Source: Gemmatimonadota bacterium (GTDB taxonomy: Bacteria; Gemmatimonadota; Gemmatimonadetes; Longimicrobiales; Gaopeijiaceae). From it: a DNA stretch of 64,000 nucleotides. Within the stretch, counting starts at the first letter, position 1. Every line of letters starts with the position of its first letter. The stretch covers positions 1 through 64,000 of the forward strand of contig JAJDXG010000049.1 of NCBI GenBank assembly GCA_022823365.1, given 5' to 3'. Below, piece after piece: positions 9,508 to 57,943 of this stretch. Below the pieces are notes generated by a model. It had not been told where the DNA came from, ran no database searches, and saw only the letters and a program-made list of their open reading frames with translations. The position numbers and the translations under genes are program-made.

Positions 9508-9559
9508 AGAGGCTCGACAGGATTCCGGCGCGCGGGTCTTTGCGGGCCGGAGCCAGGTC

Positions 9560-9736
9560 GCCCGAATTCACATTGGCGCGTCCGATTCCGTCATTTGCCG
9601 GCTCCGAGGGCATGGCTCCCTCCGGGCCAGAGCGCGGCGGCCCGAATTCACATTCGCTGTCCCATTCTGCCATTGAAAGGATCTCAGTGCGCAGTTTCCC
9701 TGCGGGCAGGACCGAGGTGCCCGAATTCACATTCGC
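9560..9736. repeat. Three tandem ~80-bp degenerate repeats
   Basis: The motif GCCCGAATTCACATTCGC (one mismatch in the first copy) begins at 9560, 9640 and 9719, so the period is 80 then 79 bases. The sequence between copies is partly conserved too: a GCAGGG- or GCGGG-rich stretch recurs at the same place. The third copy sits exactly where the homology to DUF222 proteins begins, so the repeats may have replaced the 5' half of that gene. Confidence 0.75.
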
Positions 9737-10606
9737 GTGCTCGAGCCGGAAGTCGGGGCGGTGCTCACGCGCGCGATGAGGCGGCATCGGATGCGCTGTT
9801 CCGGCGCGAGGGCGATGCCCGAGACGGAGCAGGAAGTGGAAGGGGTGTCGGCCGCGAGGCCGGCGACGCGCGCCCTGAGCCGAAGCAGCGGCGGGCGGAT
9901 GCCGTGGGACTGCTCGCAGAGCGGGCGCTGGCGGCGGGGTTCGGGGGGGACGAATCCGGCACCCGGGCGGAGCGCTACCAGGTCATGGTCCATTGCGATG
10001 CGGCAACCCTCGCGGCGGACCGTGAGCCCGGACGCTCGGATCTGGACGGGATCCGCGTTTCCCCGGAAACGTCGCGGCGCATGGCCTGCGACGCGGCGGT
10101 AGTCGCGATGGTCCACGCGAAGGATGGCTCGGTGCTGAACGTCGGTCGCCGGACGCGCACGATTCCTCCGCACATCCGACGGGCGCTGGCGGAGCGTGAC
10201 CGCGGCTGCCGCTTCCCCGGGTGTGGGTGCAGGTTCACCGAGGCGCATCACGTGAAGCACTGCGCCGATGGGGGTGAGACGGGCCTCGGGAACCCGCTGC
10301 TGCTCTGTCGGCGGCACCATCGCGCCGTTCACGAGGGACGGATCAAGGTGTCCGTGAACGGTGACGGGACGGTGCTGTTCTTCACGCGGAAGGGGAGGAT
10401 GCTGGCGGACGCGCCGAAGCGGGTTGAGCGGGCCGATGCGCCGAAGCTGCGCCCGGACCCAGACTCGCCGCCGGTCCCATCGGTTCACGCCGGCGCGCGG
10501 TCGATGGGCGAACGCACCATCCTGTCAAATGGGGCTTCGCGACTCCGACATTCCTTGGGCGATCGAGGCCGCAGCGCGGGAAGCCCTGGAGGAGTTCCTC
10601 GGATGA
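9737..10606 (+). pseudogene. DUF222-HNH endonuclease (13E12 family), truncated and frameshifted
   Basis: Homology starts at LEPEVGAVLTRA, in the middle of the usual DUF222 domain, without any N-terminal half. Near 9777 the reading frame shifts (DEAASDALFRREGDA continues in another frame). It then runs through the rest of DUF222 to an apparently intact HNH site, CRFPGCGCRFTEAHHVKHC ... NPLLLCRRHHRAVHEG. A second shift near 10490-10530 leads to a plausible natural C-terminus (IPWAIEAAAREALEEF) ending at 10606. With the 5' half missing and two shifts, it is very likely a dead copy. These genes are often repeated and associated with mobile or repetitive DNA. Confidence 0.75.
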
Positions 10607-10672
10607 AGCACGGCGACCAGCGGGAGCCCGGCGACTTGCGTTGCGCGGAAGTCCCACCGGCGGCGGACCATC

Positions 10673-11068
10673 TCATCCCCCTGCTTGGACGATCTCGACG
10701 GTTGTCGTGCGGGTCGCCAACCTGCCGGTCGCGGACCAGCCCCGGTCGAAGGGGGGACCGTAGACGTAGGAATGCGTGGCCATCAGGCTGACCCGGGCGC
10801 TCCCAGGCGCGAGACCGTGGACCTTGAGGGTCTGGCCCCTCTCGCTGTTCATCCTGGCCCTCGCTACGGTCGTGTCGCCCGAGGCGACCATGTACCTGAG
10901 CGCCCCCTCGCCCCAGAACAGCGGTCCTACGTCCACCACGACGGAATCGCCGGCGGTGATCGCGGGGATCTCGAAGGGAACATCAGACGCCAAGGGCCCC
11001 GGAAAATCGTAGTCGATCCCCGCCGGGTCGCAGCCGCAGGCCACCAGGGCTATCAAGAGCAGCCTCAT
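10673..11068 (-). CDS. Small putative lipoprotein
   Basis: A 131-residue protein starting at the ATG preceded by GAGGATGA. The signal peptide is short (MRLLLIALVACGC) with a lipobox-like VACGC. The rest looks all-beta (AGDSVVVDVGPLFWG; KVHGLAPGSARVSL; RTTTVEIVQ), resembling an Ig-like or BIG-type adhesion or scaffold domain. I do not recognise a specific family. The gene stands alone between the broken HNH gene and a coiled-coil gene. Confidence 0.55.
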   Translation of the reverse strand: MRLLLIALVACGCDPAGIDYDFPGPLASDVPFEIPAITAGDSVVVDVGPLFWGEGALRYMVASGDTTVARARMNSERGQTLKVHGLAPGSARVSLMATHSYVYGPPFDRGWSATGRLATRTTTVEIVQAGG

Positions 11069-11204
11069 GGCTTCATCCTCTGCTGGGGGATGCGCCTCCG
11101 GCCAGCCGTGTCGGCATGATGTCGTCTCCTGAGCGGCCGGAACCGTTCCGATGCTTCGACGGTCAGACCGATATTCCAATAGGACCCAGCGCCCTGGACG
11201 AGCG

Positions 11205-11708
11205 TCAGTCGTCCGGGTGTGCGGTCAGCCGGCCCTTTATGAACGCCACGTCGTCGCTGGTCCGGGCCAGCCTGACCTCCAACCCCTCGATCCGCCCGCC
11301 GAGCTCGGTGCGAACACTGTCGATCCGCCCGCCGAGCTCGGTGCGAACTCCGTCGATCCGTCCGCCGAGTTCTTTGCGAACACTGTCGATCCGTCCGCCG
11401 AGTTCGATGCTAACGCCGTCGATCCGTCCGCCGAGTTCGGTGCTAACGCCGTCGATCCGTCCGCCGAGTTCGGTGCCAACGCCGTCGATCCGTCCGCCGA
11501 GTTCGGTGCTAACGCCGTCAATCCGCAGGCCGATGGCATCGTGCGCCAGTTGATTGGCGTCGAGCCTGTTGTCCATATGGCTCCGCAGACTGTCGAGCCT
11601 CTCGTCCATATGGCGCTGTAGATTCCCGATGGTCCGCGACACCAGCGCCACGACAGCAATCGTGGTGCCCGCGGCGGTCGCCAGCATGCCGATGATCGTC
11701 GTGTCCAT
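11205..11708 (-). CDS. Coiled-coil protein of 11-residue repeats with N-terminal membrane helix
   Basis: A 167-residue protein. The ATG at 11708 follows GGAGGAGA. An N-terminal transmembrane helix (TIIGMLATAAGTTIAVVALV) is followed by a predicted long helix. Its core is seven near-identical 11-residue repeats with consensus RIDGVSTELGG and a diverged eighth. An 11-residue (hendecad) period implies a right-handed coiled coil. The tail (ARTSDDVAFIKGRL) is common in small proteins of this type. It is probably an inner-membrane-anchored oligomeric coiled coil, of unknown function. Confidence 0.6.
   Translation of the reverse strand: MDTTIIGMLATAAGTTIAVVALVSRTIGNLQRHMDERLDSLRSHMDNRLDANQLAHDAIGLRIDGVSTELGGRIDGVGTELGGRIDGVSTELGGRIDGVSIELGGRIDSVRKELGGRIDGVRTELGGRIDSVRTELGGRIEGLEVRLARTSDDVAFIKGRLTAHPDD
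11285..11525 (-). repeat. Seven 33-bp tandem repeats inside a coiled-coil gene
   Basis: The 33-base unit, on the plus strand built around CCGTCGATCCGTCCGCCGAG, is repeated about seven times with few changes. It encodes the 11-residue coiled-coil repeat. High nucleotide identity between units means copy number can change by slippage or recombination, so the protein length is probably variable between strains. Confidence 0.8.
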
Positions 11709-11825
11709 CTCGCGTCTCCTCCGGGAACGAAAACATGCTGGCACAGGGTCCAGGTGGCAAGCGGACGAAGCGTAAGTCCGGATCGCGGGCGCGGCCATGG
11801 CTGGATGGGCCGGTCTTCCGGGTCT

Positions 11826-11918
11826 TCAGCCCCCGCGTCGTAGCTCGCAGGTAGTTGGACCAGTCGCCCCGGTCCACCGCCTCGATGGGACGTTTCAGCT
11901 GAAACGCGAAGGGCGGGA
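11826..11918 (-). pseudogene. galK remnant, segment B
   Basis: On the minus strand this stretch reads FQLKRPIEAVDRGDWSNYLR and then ATTRGL, which matches FRLKRPIEAS-QGDWSNYVRAAARGL of the intact galactokinase at 13359-14543. There is no start or remaining domain. Together with the segment at 13285-13348 it is a piece of a second galK copy. The 338 bases between the coiled-coil gene and the propeller gene hold nothing else that I recognise. Confidence 0.7.
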
Positions 11919-12046
11919 AGCTGAGCCCCTCCGCGGATCGCCTGGCAGGAGGGCGATGACGCGCTCGAGGACCGTCTCATGGCTCCTATTGCGGTGGGTC
12001 GCATATTGAGACGGGACGACAATCGAAAACGGGAAGTGATAAAGCG

Positions 12047-13273
12047 ATGAAGCGAAGACTGGATCTCGGCGCATTCCGGCGAGAGCGGCGGCGGTACGTC
12101 CGGGGCGCGATCCTGGCAATGGCCGCGACGGCGGCTGGCGGCTGCGAGGCCGCCCCCGTCTCCACGAACACGTCGCGCGACAGCCTCGGGGTAACGATCG
12201 TCGAATCGGCTGCGCCTTTGTGGGGCGCGCGTGATGCATGGCGGGTCGAGGAGCAACCGATCCTCGACCTGGCCGAGGCCGGCTCGGGCGAAATGCACGC
12301 CTTCTTTCGCGTAAGGGATGTGTTGCGCGCGGGATCCGGCGATCTGGCCGTTGCCGACGGCGCGTCCCAGCAGGTCCGGATCTACGATGCAACGGGGCGA
12401 TTCGTCCGTGCCCTCGGTGGGCCGGGCGAAGGGCCGGGCGAGTTTCGCTCTCTCTGGACCGTCGTCCCGAGGCCCGACGGGCGGCTCGTGGCACTGGACC
12501 GCGCACCGGGGGGAAGCGGCGCGGAGTTCGACCTGGGATCGGGGCTCGTCTCCTCGTTTCGGATGCCGGAGGGGGTCTCTCCGCTTCGGCACCCGGTGCC
12601 CTCGGACGTGGTCTGGGGACTGGATCTGGCGCCCGGCACGGATGAGGAGAGGCGAAGCGCGGGCCTGCGGCGCCCTCCGGTCACCATCGTTCGATTGTCG
12701 GAGGACCGGATGTCGAGTGACTCGGTCACGAGCCTTCCCGGTTATGAGAACTTCACCGTTACCGAGGGGGACGACATCCCGATCATGGGTCGGTTGCCCC
12801 ACGCAGTGCCGGACGGCGAGGGAAGAATCGCCATGGGCACGGCCGAAGCGCTGGAGTACTCGATCGTCGACGGCCGGACCGGAGAACTGCGCCTGATCGC
12901 GCGCATTCCCGGAGTTTCGCTGACCGTGTCCAGCGCGGAGATAGACCGTGAAAGGGAGGAATGGCTGGGATCCGATCCCAGTCCCTTCATCCGGGAGATG
13001 ATGGCTCGCTTGCCCGTGCCCAGCGAGAAGCCGGGCTATCAACGCATGATCATGGATGACGGGAATGTGTGGGCGGGCGAGTATCTTGGACTCGCCCGGC
13101 GCGACGAACCGCAGAAGTGGTACGTGCTGGACTTGTCGGGAGTGTGGCTCGGAGTCGTCGTCACACCGGCGCGCTTCGAGCTGATGCGGGTGGGCGCCGA
13201 CGAAGTGTTCGGGGTGTGGCGTGACGTCAACGATGTCGAGCATCCGCAGGTTCTGCGGCTGGTGAAGCCCTGA
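12047..13273 (+). CDS. Six-bladed beta-propeller lipoprotein
   Basis: A 408-residue exported protein. After a basic start comes a hydrophobic stretch ending in a lipobox-like AAGGC. The propeller has the usual features of NHL/six-bladed proteins of this group: an entry strand (GVTIVESAAPLWG), blades such as DLAVADGASQQVRIYDATGRF and the signature LGGPGEGPGEFRS, and a C-terminal velcro strand (HPQVLRLVK). It has no enzymatic motif, so binding or a structural role is likely. The gene is inserted between two galK fragments, each carrying a 21-bp direct repeat. Confidence 0.75.
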   Translation: MKRRLDLGAFRRERRRYVRGAILAMAATAAGGCEAAPVSTNTSRDSLGVTIVESAAPLWGARDAWRVEEQPILDLAEAGSGEMHAFFRVRDVLRAGSGDLAVADGASQQVRIYDATGRFVRALGGPGEGPGEFRSLWTVVPRPDGRLVALDRAPGGSGAEFDLGSGLVSSFRMPEGVSPLRHPVPSDVVWGLDLAPGTDEERRSAGLRRPPVTIVRLSEDRMSSDSVTSLPGYENFTVTEGDDIPIMGRLPHAVPDGEGRIAMGTAEALEYSIVDGRTGELRLIARIPGVSLTVSSAEIDREREEWLGSDPSPFIREMMARLPVPSEKPGYQRMIMDDGNVWAGEYLGLARRDEPQKWYVLDLSGVWLGVVVTPARFELMRVGADEVFGVWRDVNDVEHPQVLRLVKP

Positions 13274-13284
13274 CAGGCGCCGGT

Positions 13285-13348
13285 CGGACGCTTCTGCTGA
13301 AACGCGAGGCCCGCGAACACGCCACGGGCTGTCCAGTCGCACCACCGG
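13285..13348 (-). pseudogene. galK remnant, segment A
   Basis: Minus-strand translation begins VRLDSPWRV and then degenerates. It matches VVRLDSPSARFAPFAFRLKR of intact galK at the nucleotide level (GGGCTGTCCAG and CGCACCACCGG are shared). It lies immediately beyond the stop of the intact galK. Its end, GGACGCTTCTGCTGAAACGC, repeats almost exactly at 11888-11908, the start of segment B. Confidence 0.6.
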
Positions 13349-13358
13349 AGGTGCGAGG

Positions 13359-14543
13359 CTACCTCTCCTGGACCCCTGCCCCTCCGCTTGGCTTCGCGAC
13401 GAACAGCATGTCGGTGGTGGGTGGCCCGCCCAGGCGTGGCTTGTAGAACCGCGCGGTTAGCGCCTCCATAACCGGTTCGACGGTGCTGTCGTCGCAGAGC
13501 GCCACGGCGCAGCCCCCGAAACCGGCGCCGGTCAGCCGTGCGCCCGCTGCCCCCGCCTCGCGTGCGACTCCCACAATCGCGTCGAGCTCATCTGTGCTCA
13601 CCTCGTAGTCGTCGCGGAGGCTCTCGTGCGAGCGCACCATGAGGCGGCCGAAGCGGTGCAGGTCGCCGTCGCTCATGGCCTGCTCGGCGAGCGCCACCCG
13701 GCTGCCCTCCGTGACCACGTGGCGGAAGCGGCGAAACAGCACGGGGGAGAGGATGCGGCGGGCATCGCGGAGAAGGCCGTCGGGGTCGTCCGCTGAGACC
13801 AGGTCGCGGTAGGTAGTCGCGGTGCTCGCTGCTCGGTTGCGCGACTTGGCCGCCCCGCCTCCCGACGCGGCACCGACAGAGGCTGCCAGCGCCTCGCGGC
13901 ACTGCCGCGCCCTCTCGTTATACATCTCCCGCGCGCCCGCGGACTTCTCCGCCCGGACCAGCGACGACGCCACCACCCACCGCCACCCGTCGGGCACGGG
14001 TACCGGGGTCACCCGCAACGGGTCGAACTCGATGCGGAGGGCGTGTCCGGCGATGCCGTGAAGACACGCGGCCTGGTCCATCCCGCCCCCTTCGAGGCCG
14101 ACGAAGCGCTCGGCGCGCGCCATGAGGGCGGCGAGTTGGAGGCGTGGAAGCGTCACCCCATTCGCCTTCAGCAACGCCAGCGCCGAGGCCACCACGAGCG
14201 CCGACGACGACGACAGCCCCGACGCGATGGGAACATCGCCGGACACGGTCCCTTCGATTCCTCGGTCCAGCGATATCCCGTGCTCGAGCAGGCCCCGAGC
14301 CGCGGCTCGCACGTAGTTGGACCAGTCTCCCTGGGCCGATGCCTCGATGGGACGTTTCAGCCGAAACGCGAACGGCGCGAAACGGGCCGACGGGCTGTCC
14401 AGCCGCACCACCGGATCGTCCAGCACCCGGAAGTCGACACGGATGTCCCGGTCAATGGCGATCGGGAAGACCGGCAGGCCGTTGTAGTCGGTATGTTCGC
14501 CGATCAGGTTGACGCGGCCGGGGGCGGTGACGCGCCAGCTCAA
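13359..14543 (-). CDS. galK: Galactokinase
   Basis: Phosphorylates galactose, or a related sugar, at C1 with ATP. The protein of about 394 residues belongs to the GHMP kinases: APGRVNLIGEHTDYNGLPV is the sugar-binding signature at the N-terminus, GDVPIASGLSSSSALV the ATP-binding loop, and LTGAGFGGCAVAL motif 3. The catalytic Asp is in GGGMDQAACLHG. No ATG precedes the conserved start. A TTG at 14543 overlaps the symporter stop (TTGA), giving a normal length and translational coupling. It forms an operon with the Na+/sugar symporter and the nucleotidyltransferase. Confidence 0.9.
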   Translation of the reverse strand: MSWRVTAPGRVNLIGEHTDYNGLPVFPIAIDRDIRVDFRVLDDPVVRLDSPSARFAPFAFRLKRPIEASAQGDWSNYVRAAARGLLEHGISLDRGIEGTVSGDVPIASGLSSSSALVVASALALLKANGVTLPRLQLAALMARAERFVGLEGGGMDQAACLHGIAGHALRIEFDPLRVTPVPVPDGWRWVVASSLVRAEKSAGAREMYNERARQCREALAASVGAASGGGAAKSRNRAASTATTYRDLVSADDPDGLLRDARRILSPVLFRRFRHVVTEGSRVALAEQAMSDGDLHRFGRLMVRSHESLRDDYEVSTDELDAIVGVAREAGAAGARLTGAGFGGCAVALCDDSTVEPVMEALTARFYKPRLGGPPTTDMLFVAKPSGGAGVQER

Positions 14544-16312
14544 TCCGAATAGCCCAACTTCGGCAACAGCCGGAAGAGCCACACTCCGGCTCCCGCCGAG
14601 ATCGCCAGCGCTACCACCGCCGCCAGGCCCTGCCCGTACAGCAGATATCCCGTCCCGAAGAGCGCCGCGTAGACCAGCACGCACCCGAGGAACCAGGCGA
14701 GGAAGGCCGCCGTGACGGACCCCGACTCGCGCGGCCCGTCGCCCACGTCGACGACCCGCCGCCATCCAGCGCCCATCGGCCGGATCTTGTCGTAGAAGCC
14801 CTGCAGTGTCTCCGAATCGGCGGGCGCCGTAAGGAAGGTCACCCCGAGCCAGCCGACCGTCGTTACCGCCACCCCGATCACGAGCTGCGTCCAGGCCGGC
14901 AGCGGCGCCAGTCCCAGCGCCCCGTGCACCCAGGCGAAGTAGACGGCCACCAGGAAGGAGATCGTCATTCCGGCCAGTTCACTCCACACGTTCACGCGGT
15001 ACCAGAACCAGCGCAGCAGGAAGATGAGCCCGGTTCCGGCCCCGATCTGGAGCAGGATCTGGAACCCCTGCCCCGCGGTGTCGAGCTGGAGCGCGATGAA
15101 GGCGCCCAGGACCATCAGCCCGACGGTCGACAGGCGTCCCACCGCCACCAGCCGCCGCTGGCTCGCGTGCGGGTTCACGAAGCGGCGATAGAAGTCGCTC
15201 ACGACGTAGGATGAGCCCCAGTTGAGCTGGGTGCTGATCGTGGACATGTACGCCGCCGCGAGCGACGCCACCACCAGCCCGAGCAGCCCGGCGGGCAGGA
15301 ACACCAGCATGGCCGGATAGGCCAGGTCATTGCCCACCAGCCCGGGATCGAGGTCCGGGAAGCGGGCCTGGATGTCGGAGAGCTCCGGGTACACGAGCAT
15401 CGAGCACAGCGCCACGATGATCCACGGCCAGGGGCGGAGCCCGTAGTGCGCGACGTTGAACCAGAGCGTCGCCTTCATCGATTCCTTCTCGTTCTTCGCG
15501 GCAAGCATCCGCTGCGCGACGTAGCCTCCGCCCCCCGGCTCGGCCCCCGGATACCACGCGCTCCACCACTGCACCGCGATGGGGATGATGAAGATTCCCG
15601 CGGCGACGCTCCAGTCGGAGAAGTCGGGAAAGAAGTTCATCGCCGACTGCAGCTCCGGGTGCGAGACGAGCCCCGCGAGCCCCCCGACCTCGGGCTGGCG
15701 CAACGCGAACACGGCGGCCGCCACGGATCCGATCATCGCCACGACGAAGAGCACGAGGTCGGTCACGACGACTCCCCAGAGCCCCGAAGTCGCGGAGTAG
15801 ATCATGGTCACGGTGCCCGCGATCAGGACCGTGGTCAGCGGATCGAGCCCCAGGAGCACGCCGCCGATCTTGGTCGCCGCGAGCGTCACCGTCGCGATGA
15901 TCATCACGTTGTAGAAGACGCCCAGGTACAGTGCCCGGAACCCTCGCAGAAACGCCGCAGCGCGCCCCGAATAGCGCAGTTCGTAGAACTCGATGTCGGT
16001 CAGCGCGCCCGACCGCCGCCACAGGCGCGCGTAGAAGAAGACGGTGCACATCCCGGTGATCAGGAAGGCCCACCACGCCCAGTTCTGCGCGACCCCGCCC
16101 CCGCGCACGAAGTCGGCGATCAGGTTGGGCGTGTCGGTCGAGAAGGTCGTCGCGACCATCGACGTGCCCAGCAGCCACCACGGCAGCTTCCGCCCCGAAA
16201 GGAAGAACTCGTCGGCCCCTGACCCCGCGCGCCGGGCGAAGCGGAGGCCGATGGCAAGGGCGGTCAGCCCGTAGAGCGCGATGACGATCCAGTCGAGCGT
16301 GGTGAGTTGCAT
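14540..16312 (-). CDS. Na+/sugar symporter (SSS family, SGLT-like)
   Basis: A 590-residue inner-membrane protein with about 14-15 transmembrane helices. Motifs are DEFFLSGRKLPWWLLGTSMV after helix 1 and STDTPNLIADFVR in helix 2. There are large periplasmic loops, and a substrate-region segment GAEPGGGGYVAQRMLAAKNE typical of the sugar-transporting SSS branch. It overlaps the galactokinase start by four bases, so the cargo is probably galactose or a galactoside-derived hexose. It also lies six bases from the nucleotidyltransferase upstream. Confidence 0.9.
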   Translation of the reverse strand: MQLTTLDWIVIALYGLTALAIGLRFARRAGSGADEFFLSGRKLPWWLLGTSMVATTFSTDTPNLIADFVRGGGVAQNWAWWAFLITGMCTVFFYARLWRRSGALTDIEFYELRYSGRAAAFLRGFRALYLGVFYNVMIIATVTLAATKIGGVLLGLDPLTTVLIAGTVTMIYSATSGLWGVVVTDLVLFVVAMIGSVAAAVFALRQPEVGGLAGLVSHPELQSAMNFFPDFSDWSVAAGIFIIPIAVQWWSAWYPGAEPGGGGYVAQRMLAAKNEKESMKATLWFNVAHYGLRPWPWIIVALCSMLVYPELSDIQARFPDLDPGLVGNDLAYPAMLVFLPAGLLGLVVASLAAAYMSTISTQLNWGSSYVVSDFYRRFVNPHASQRRLVAVGRLSTVGLMVLGAFIALQLDTAGQGFQILLQIGAGTGLIFLLRWFWYRVNVWSELAGMTISFLVAVYFAWVHGALGLAPLPAWTQLVIGVAVTTVGWLGVTFLTAPADSETLQGFYDKIRPMGAGWRRVVDVGDGPRESGSVTAAFLAWFLGCVLVYAALFGTGYLLYGQGLAAVVALAISAGAGVWLFRLLPKLGYSD

Positions 16313-52085: not shown

Positions 52086-53636
52086 CTACCTGTTCTCGAT
52101 CCCTTGATGCCGCCTTGCCATCACACCGGGCCTCAACATGAGTGCGCTGACGATGGCGAGGGCCGCAACCACCCCTCCGACGACAAAGGCATCATCGAGC
52201 GCACCGCCCAGGGCCGTTGTGAAGTACCGACGCACGCTCTCAGCGGTCTGCGCGCCGCCCGGCAGTTCAAGCGCCGTCGAGTCGAGAGCCGCTCCTGCCA
52301 GCGCCATCGACTCCATCCAGCCGTCGGGAAGCTGGACGCGCAGCGACTCGGGGAGGACGTCCCGGAACCGCGAGGACGTGCGCTGCGCAACCACCGCGCC
52401 CATGACGGCCACCCCCACCGTGCCTCCCACCGATCTCTGGAACTGCACTGCCGCCGTGGCGGCACCGATGTTCGCATGCGCAACCGTGTTCTGTACCGCA
52501 ACCGTGAATACCGAGGTCACGCCGCCGATCCCGATGCCCATCACCAGGATGAACGCGAGGGCGACGGCAACGCCGGTGTCGGGTGTCAGGGTGGAAAGCG
52601 CCAACATCCCGGCCGCTGCGAGCGCCGTGCCGGACAAGGCCAGCGCGCGGTGGCTCACCCCTGAACGAGATAGAAGCTGTCCCGACGCTGCGGCACCGAG
52701 GACGATACCCACCATGATCGGGGCAAGAAAGGCGCCGCTTTGCGCGGCGGACGTCCCCTGCATCGCCTGAAAGAAGAGCGGTATGAAGAGGATGCCTCCG
52801 AACATCATGAACCCGACCAGGAACATGGCCGACACGGACACGAGCACGGTTCGGTTTCGGTAGATGTCCAGGGGCACGATCGGCCACGCCGCCCTGGACT
52901 CGATGGCGATGAAGAGACCGGTGACCGCCAGCCCGAAGCTTAGGAGCCCGACGACCTGCCAGGAACCCCACGGATACAGGACGCCTCCCGCCGAGAGGGC
53001 CACGAGCACGGACGTGGTGGCTACGACCAGCGCCACGATTCCGGCATGGTCGATCGCCGGGCGATCGCCGGGCGGACCGGCGGGACGGGGATAGGATCGC
53101 GCGAGCCGGGCCAACACCGCCAGCCCGACGGGCACGTTGACGAGGAACGCCCAGCCCCAGTGCACGCGGTCGACGATTACCCCGCCCACCAACGGTCCCG
53201 CGACGGCCGCCAGGCCGAACACGGCGCCCGCGAGGCCGTGGTACCTGCCGCGATCCTCCGGGGGAGCCAGGTCCCCCGCGGCGGCGATGGCGTTGACCAG
53301 TATCACACCGCCCCCAATGCCCTGCAGGGCGCGGAAGGCGATGAGCTGGTTCATCGACTGGCTCAACCCGACCGAGATCGAAGCGAGGGTGAAGGCCACG
53401 ACGCCGACCAGAAACATGAGCCGGCGACCGAAGAGGTCGGCGAGCCTGCCCGCAATCGGCATGACCGTCGTCGACGTGACCATGTACGACGTGGACGCCC
53501 AGGCGTACCTGTCGAAACCTCCCAGGTCGGCGATGGCGGCAGGCAGCACGGTGCTCACGACCGTGTTCCCCATGGCGGCCAGAAAGAGCGCCGCCATCGC
53601 GCCCTGGAGCGCGCGCCGGTGTTGGTCGAGGCTCAC
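52086..53636 (-). CDS. MFS drug-exporter-type transporter (DHA2, 14 TM)
   Basis: A 516-residue permease with 14 hydrophobic segments, of the EmrB/QacA group. Motifs: VLPAAIADLGGFDRYAWAST in helix 1-2, GRLADLFGRRLMFLVG (motif A) after helix 2, and FRALQGIGGGVILVN (motif B). It pumps out a drug or metabolite using protons. The GTG at 53636 was chosen. It overlaps a TGA belonging to the dctM-end repeat (GTGA), as if the gene once followed dctM directly. Upstream GTGs lie inside the repeat. Confidence 0.85.
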   Translation of the reverse strand: MSLDQHRRALQGAMAALFLAAMGNTVVSTVLPAAIADLGGFDRYAWASTSYMVTSTTVMPIAGRLADLFGRRLMFLVGVVAFTLASISVGLSQSMNQLIAFRALQGIGGGVILVNAIAAAGDLAPPEDRGRYHGLAGAVFGLAAVAGPLVGGVIVDRVHWGWAFLVNVPVGLAVLARLARSYPRPAGPPGDRPAIDHAGIVALVVATTSVLVALSAGGVLYPWGSWQVVGLLSFGLAVTGLFIAIESRAAWPIVPLDIYRNRTVLVSVSAMFLVGFMMFGGILFIPLFFQAMQGTSAAQSGAFLAPIMVGIVLGAAASGQLLSRSGVSHRALALSGTALAAAGMLALSTLTPDTGVAVALAFILVMGIGIGGVTSVFTVAVQNTVAHANIGAATAAVQFQRSVGGTVGVAVMGAVVAQRTSSRFRDVLPESLRVQLPDGWMESMALAGAALDSTALELPGGAQTAESVRRYFTTALGGALDDAFVVGGVVAALAIVSALMLRPGVMARRHQGIENR

Positions 53637-53679
53637 CACCCCAACACCCCCGGCAGCCACAACACCACTCCCGGCACCA
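53632..53679 (-). repeat. 48-bp direct repeat, left copy: displaced dctM 3' end
   Basis: On the minus strand it encodes LVPGVVLWLPGVLGW and TGA, the last residues of DctM. It matches 57896-57943 at 44 of 48 positions, in the same orientation. The differences keep the encoded residues. Together the copies bracket the restriction-modification and three-gene operon segment. Confidence 0.78.
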
Positions 53680-57895: not shown

Positions 57896-57943
57896 CTCAC
57901 CACCCGAGCACCCCCGGCAGCCACAGCACCACCCCCGGCACCA
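57896..57943 (-). repeat. 48-bp direct repeat, right copy: 3' end of intact dctM
   Basis: The last 15 codons and stop of dctM plus one base. It matches the left copy at 53632-53679 at 44 of 48 positions. In an integration model this would be the restored gene end. Confidence 0.78.

Follow-up and report, generated by a model that had tools for sequence, protein, structure and literature searches.

The window, the 64-kb stretch of DNA analyzed here (64,000 nucleotides), belongs to a genome (G000) of the uncultured, sponge-associated genus Ca. Palauibacter, and was compared with 10 other genomes of the genus and with a further named relative, Candidatus Palauibacter rhopaloidicola (L196); the named relatives are metagenome assemblies. 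The locus consists of an intact galactokinase gene, galK, a 6-bladed β-propeller gene whose product has, by eye, a lipoprotein-like N-terminus, and two galK-derived relics, L and R, that lie on either side of the propeller gene. Coordinates are collected in Table 1.

Table 1. Features at the propeller-galK locus, in window coordinates
Feature	Position	Strand	Description
Genome-specific 2.5-kb segment	9508..12021		Between M20 peptidase gene and propeller; not found in the compared relatives' loci
galK relic L	11827..11919	-	Matches galK 14289-14381, codons FQLKRPIEA..GDWSNYLR
Perfect 16-bp palindrome CGTTTCAGCTGAAACG	11891..11906		Inside L
abiEii 3'-end relic (toxin gene)	11924..11983	-	Directly adjoins L; 86.9% to AbiEii 3' end of G004 spacer, E 2.9e-15
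SAP-gene end, short stretch (probable)	12022..12046	+	Common to relatives with a SAP-domain gene just upstream of propeller
6-bladed β-propeller gene	12047..13273	+	Convergent to galK; weak Pfam DUF5128 match, below curated cut-off
galK relic R	13286..13349	-	Matches galK 14350-14415, VRLDSP side; in propeller-galK spacer
Intact galactokinase galK	13359..14540	-	TIGR00131, E 4.3e-79; source-type sequence of both relics

Comparison of positions 11000-13354 with the intact galK region by BLASTN shows that both fragments are real, lie on the minus strand and keep the order that they have in galK. L aligns over 93 bp with 83.9% identity (101 bits, E 1.7e-24) and R over 66 columns with 81.8% identity (59 bits, E 5e-12), far above the top score of 37.4 bits from 500 dinucleotide shuffles. 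The first-pass annotation had described galK-derived pieces on both sides of the propeller, and the 82–84% nucleotide identity to the neighboring galactokinase ORF (TIGR00131, 4e-79), measured against galK only among the GHMP kinases, bears this out. L is in frame (LSFPPFAFQLKRPIEAVDRGDWSNYLRATTRGL) and has no start or stop of its own, R is frameshifted, and with lengths of 93 and 64 bp the two combine galK similarity with apparent loss of function, as expected of galactokinase pseudogenes. The pieces had also been taken for consecutive parts of GalK; instead they overlap by 32 bp, as galK 14350-14381 is contained in both. The short direct repeat reported at 11888 and 13286 is present, GGACGTTTCAGCTGAAACGCGA at the first position being identical to GGACGCTTCTGCTGAAACGCGA at the second in 20 of 22 positions. 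This 21-bp repeat exists because both relics contain galK 14350-14381, and is a stretch of galK common to L and R rather than a sequence placed exactly at a break.

A whole-genome search with the L stretch at E≤0.001 matched L itself and galK only. Self-BLAST of the window returned six repeat pairs, two of which are the galK scraps; the sole other dispersed repeat in the 64 kb is a 48-bp direct repeat at 53632-53679 and 57896-57943 (91.7% identity). L is most similar to the galK of L196 (88.6%), with 87.1% for that of G006 and 83.9% for the window's own galK, which rules out a recent copy of the latter as its source; since it is equally close or closer to the galK of several other species, L has little of the look of a copy newly made on the spot. 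A scan of 11700-14600 found no promoter or terminator, leaving a terminator role for R unsupported.

The propeller ortholog lies beside galK, in convergent orientation, in 9 of the 10 other genomes of the genus and in L196, at 84–89% amino acid identity (85–89% in the nine). The exception, G007, is 67% complete and has no match to either protein. The galK gene runs off the contig in G009 and is cut at the contig end in G002, and G001 has no M20 gene upstream of the propeller. A search of the genus genomes revealed no intact galK in tandem. The propeller is thus an old resident of the locus and not a recent arrival, its recent insertion being ruled out by the pairing with galK across the genus, with or without scraps. 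In the sister-genus genome G034 the 16-kb galK locus contains no galK scrap, and different genes lie on the 3' side of galK. By eye, these 3' neighbors (L094 2155-7574) are an ATPase-like ORF and a 1387-aa NTPase-like ORF, perhaps defense-related cargo, and galK is separated from the symporter gene by another propeller-like sequence.

An R-like galK scrap is present in the propeller-galK spacer at 9 of 11 loci (10 loci including that of G000, plus L196), where G004 and G010 are near identical and count as one lineage. In G000, G001, G002, G003, G004 and G010 the scrap lies around galK 14341-14415 or part thereof; in G008 and G009 it comprises only 23–26 bp, the right end of that stretch; and in L196 it corresponds to galK 14278-14353, an L-type left part at 76% identity that begins right after the propeller stop. 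The L196 spacer also holds a weak match of 32 bp to the galK 3' end (81%, E 0.004). The spacers of G005 and G006 contain no galK scrap, and in all other relatives the only scrap found is the one in the propeller-galK spacer, with none across the propeller from it. Its left edge, right after the propeller stop, is common to G001, G002, G003 and G004/G010, and its right edge to R of G000, G003, G008 and G009. Because these edges are common among relatives, the scraps, which at 23–93 bp are too short to be placed in a tree by themselves, point to a single relic inherited from an ancestor rather than to copying on several occasions. This bears on the possibility of templated insertion, in which double-strand breaks in the spacer would have been filled by copying short galK stretches with no cargo transfer. 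The small size of the scraps, their direct orientation and their origin in a single neighboring gene fit this; however, all derive from the same galK stretch with common edges, which indicates a single ancestral event, and the galK of its own genome is not the one nearest to L, making this explanation unlikely.

Intact cargo is found in 4 of the 11 spacers and consists in every case of toxin-antitoxin modules, never of the propeller. The G004/G010 spacer contains, in order, the scrap, AbiEii-AbiEi and a 38-bp stretch with 82% identity to the RelB gene of G002, and this RelB-like stretch beside AbiE appears to record successive cargo. Its AbiEii and AbiEi agree with the Pfam (E 1.9e-36 and 5e-44) and PADLOC models of the AbiE type IV toxin-antitoxin system, whereas the window keeps only a 60-bp 3' relic. 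RelB-YafQ occupies the spacer of G002, and in that of L196 the scrap is accompanied by an AbiEi relic of 198 bp (89%), two proteins that match no Pfam family and an XRE-ImmA/IrrE protein. Between the same two conserved genes there is accordingly AbiE, RelB-YafQ, XRE-ImmA/IrrE or no cargo. Among seven spacer proteins scanned against Pfam, a subset of the spacer ORFs, there was no recombinase or transposase, and two of the seven had no Pfam match. AbiE also occurs at two other loci of the genus, whole in G005:C266 and partly deleted in G008:C111, with no galK scrap beside it at either. The scrap therefore belongs to the propeller-galK locus and not to AbiE, and scraps travelling with AbiE can be ruled out. 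The propeller-galK spacer is best read as a turnover site that gains and loses small toxin-antitoxin modules.

On the other side of the propeller, the genome-specific segment contains, in order, 80-bp repeats, a DUF222-HNH gene, small ORFs, a coiled-coil ORF with 33-bp repeats, L and the AbiEii relic, and of all this BLASTN against the relatives' loci matched L alone. The repeats of ~80 bp (9543-9736), which carry GCCCGAATTCACATTCGC, overlap the start of the DUF222-HNH ORF (9595-10791), whose DUF222 match is limited to the C-terminal third of the model; the ORF at 11205-11798 on the minus strand has eight 33-bp repeats and a weak apolipoprotein-type match below the curated cut-off. A DNA search with 11905-12021 in 13 genomes gave only weak matches outside the window and missed the AbiEii match, which was revealed by direct alignment to the G004 spacer; the relic also matches the AbiE loci G005:C266 and G008:C111. 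Homology upstream of the propeller begins at 12022 for G002, G004, G010 and L196, at 12012 for G009 and at 12029 for G008, and only at 12105-12106 for G003, G005 and G006; the 12022-12046 stretch, a weak item, is probably the relic of the end of a SAP-domain gene. The AbiEii relic sits between L and the propeller, so that L is not joined directly to the propeller gene. Since L is joined to the AbiEii 3' relic as in the G004 spacer, it looks like a second relic spacer: L with the AbiEii relic is similar to the spacers of G004 and L196, and R represents the G003 type of spacer.

The first-pass annotation had proposed that the propeller entered a duplicate of galK, possibly through the 21-bp repeat, which would then be a target duplication or a site of recombination. 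In favor of this, the extents of L and R complement each other, and their 32-bp overlap around the palindrome is what a target duplication would give. However, the propeller stands without a scrap in G005 and G006 and with a scrap on one side only in other relatives, the AbiEii relic intervenes between L and the propeller, and an insertion would have to predate the genus, with the L-type upstream sequence lost everywhere except in G000. The presence of the propeller beside galK across the genus, with or without scraps, is not the pattern of an insertion with target-site duplication, and we regard this origin as distinctly improbable. What remains of the split-duplicate reading is the presence of decayed extra-galK pieces on both sides; the propeller insertion falls away.

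The palindrome inside L is degenerate in R (13289-13304) and has one mismatch in galK (14353-14368). GTTTCAGCTGAAAC occurs at 48 sites, 1–8 per genome, in 11/11 genomes of the genus and at none in 13 genomes outside it, and the reversed control gave none. Eleven of the sites are at the galK locus; inspection of the other 37 assigned 13 to loci that have a DUF222-HNH match, the remainder being scattered over various genes, intergenic sites and positions near gene starts. Pairs of GTTTCCCGTGAAAC spaced 47–50 bp apart, as at G000:C30:41368 and 41415 and similarly in G001, G002, G005, G006 and G008, resemble chromosomal parS sites. GTTTCAGCTGAAAC is a real genus-level oddity and a testable side lead, and nothing here links the palindrome to cargo movement. 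Were CGTTTCAGCTGAAACG a site-specific recombination or attachment site, the scraps would be att-site remnants around exchanged cargo. The confinement of GTTTCAGCTGAAAC to the genus, the occurrence of AGCT as the center of 48 of the 104 GTTTCNNNNGAAAC sites, and several scrap edges within about 40 bp of the palindrome are consistent with this. Yet most palindrome copies are not beside toxin-antitoxin cargo, AbiE at its two other loci has no galK-type site beside it, no recombinase is among the spacer proteins scanned, and the G008/G009 spacer scrap does not contain the palindrome, all of which makes an att site very improbable. There is a very small chance that CGTTTCAGCTGAAACG, common to galK, the scraps and DUF222-HNH genes, is a recognized DNA site (a nuclease target or ParB-like binding site) for cutting or exchange that would make galK the entry point for Palauibacter toxin-antitoxin modules.

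Gene trees give conflicting positions for G000 along the locus. The propeller tree places it with G003 (96/96; 99/98 for the 3' half) and rejects its placement with the G004/G008 group (AU p 0.007), whereas in the symporter tree it joins G004/G008/G010 (100/100) and a position with the G003 group is rejected (p 0.0013). As these two trees disagree on G000, recombination probably crossed the locus. The epimerase gene, further on, again groups G000 with G003 (100/100). In the galK 3' subtree neither placement of G000 is rejected (AU p 0.33 and 0.28), and in the M20 tree G000 falls between these groups, both splits being supported. A breakpoint likely lies between 13.27 and 14.54 kb, which does not confine it to the spacer.

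On balance, we favor the interpretation that L and R are scars of homology-anchored exchange of toxin-antitoxin cargo at a turnover site, with two relic spacers in the window genome. What the analysis shows are the scraps and the cargo, an AbiEii relic adjoining L, a propeller of long standing and gene trees in conflict; from these we infer the following route and order of events. L and R would be decayed copies of one internal galK stretch (union about 14278-14415) that lodged in the propeller-galK spacer before most of the genus diverged; no intermediate for the origin of the first scrap was observed among the loci compared. Incoming DNA would have been anchored by homology in the flanking genes and non-homologous cargo joined illegitimately, after which the redundant galK sequence would have been trimmed to scraps and the cargo lost later. 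In the window genome, the second spacer relic, L with the AbiEii 3' end, would have come to lie upstream of the propeller. The simplest way for L to reach its place would be the addition of a foreign or duplicated propeller-spacer block beside the resident one, a tandem intermediate from which the extra propeller and galK were then deleted; no second propeller trace was seen left of L.

The term minimal mobile elements is used for Neisseria (PMC1538595). In such elements the small cargo between a given pair of conserved genes varies from strain to strain, without mobility genes. Like them, the locus has varying small cargo between two conserved genes and no mobility genes among the spacer proteins scanned; it differs in holding flanking-gene scraps and relics of previous cargo, and the likeness is one of sequence. 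For the T6SS effector-immunity modules of Vibrio cholerae, sequential displacement is described and a process akin to homology-facilitated illegitimate recombination proposed (PMC5361080). In both cases a new toxin-type module appears at a fixed locus, with remnants of earlier residents beside it and, presumably here too, one homologous anchor. In contrast to the V. cholerae modules, the cargo here consists of toxin-antitoxin modules between galactokinase and propeller genes, the scraps derive from galK, which is itself the anchor gene, and there is no orphan immunity array. The propeller-galK pattern therefore resembles both V. cholerae displacement and minimal mobile elements, a resemblance by analogy in which membership is not provable, the events being old. 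A literature search of limited reach for the propeller-galK locus found nothing resembling it, and the best reading is a process of a known kind acting at a new locus.

A site where toxin-antitoxin modules came and went can thus be marked by short scraps of a housekeeping gene, and the look of a split gene can arise from two relic spacers with no insertion into the gene needed. The propeller-galK spacer is a concrete place at which the turnover of cargo can be followed in a genus that lives with sponges and is uncultured.
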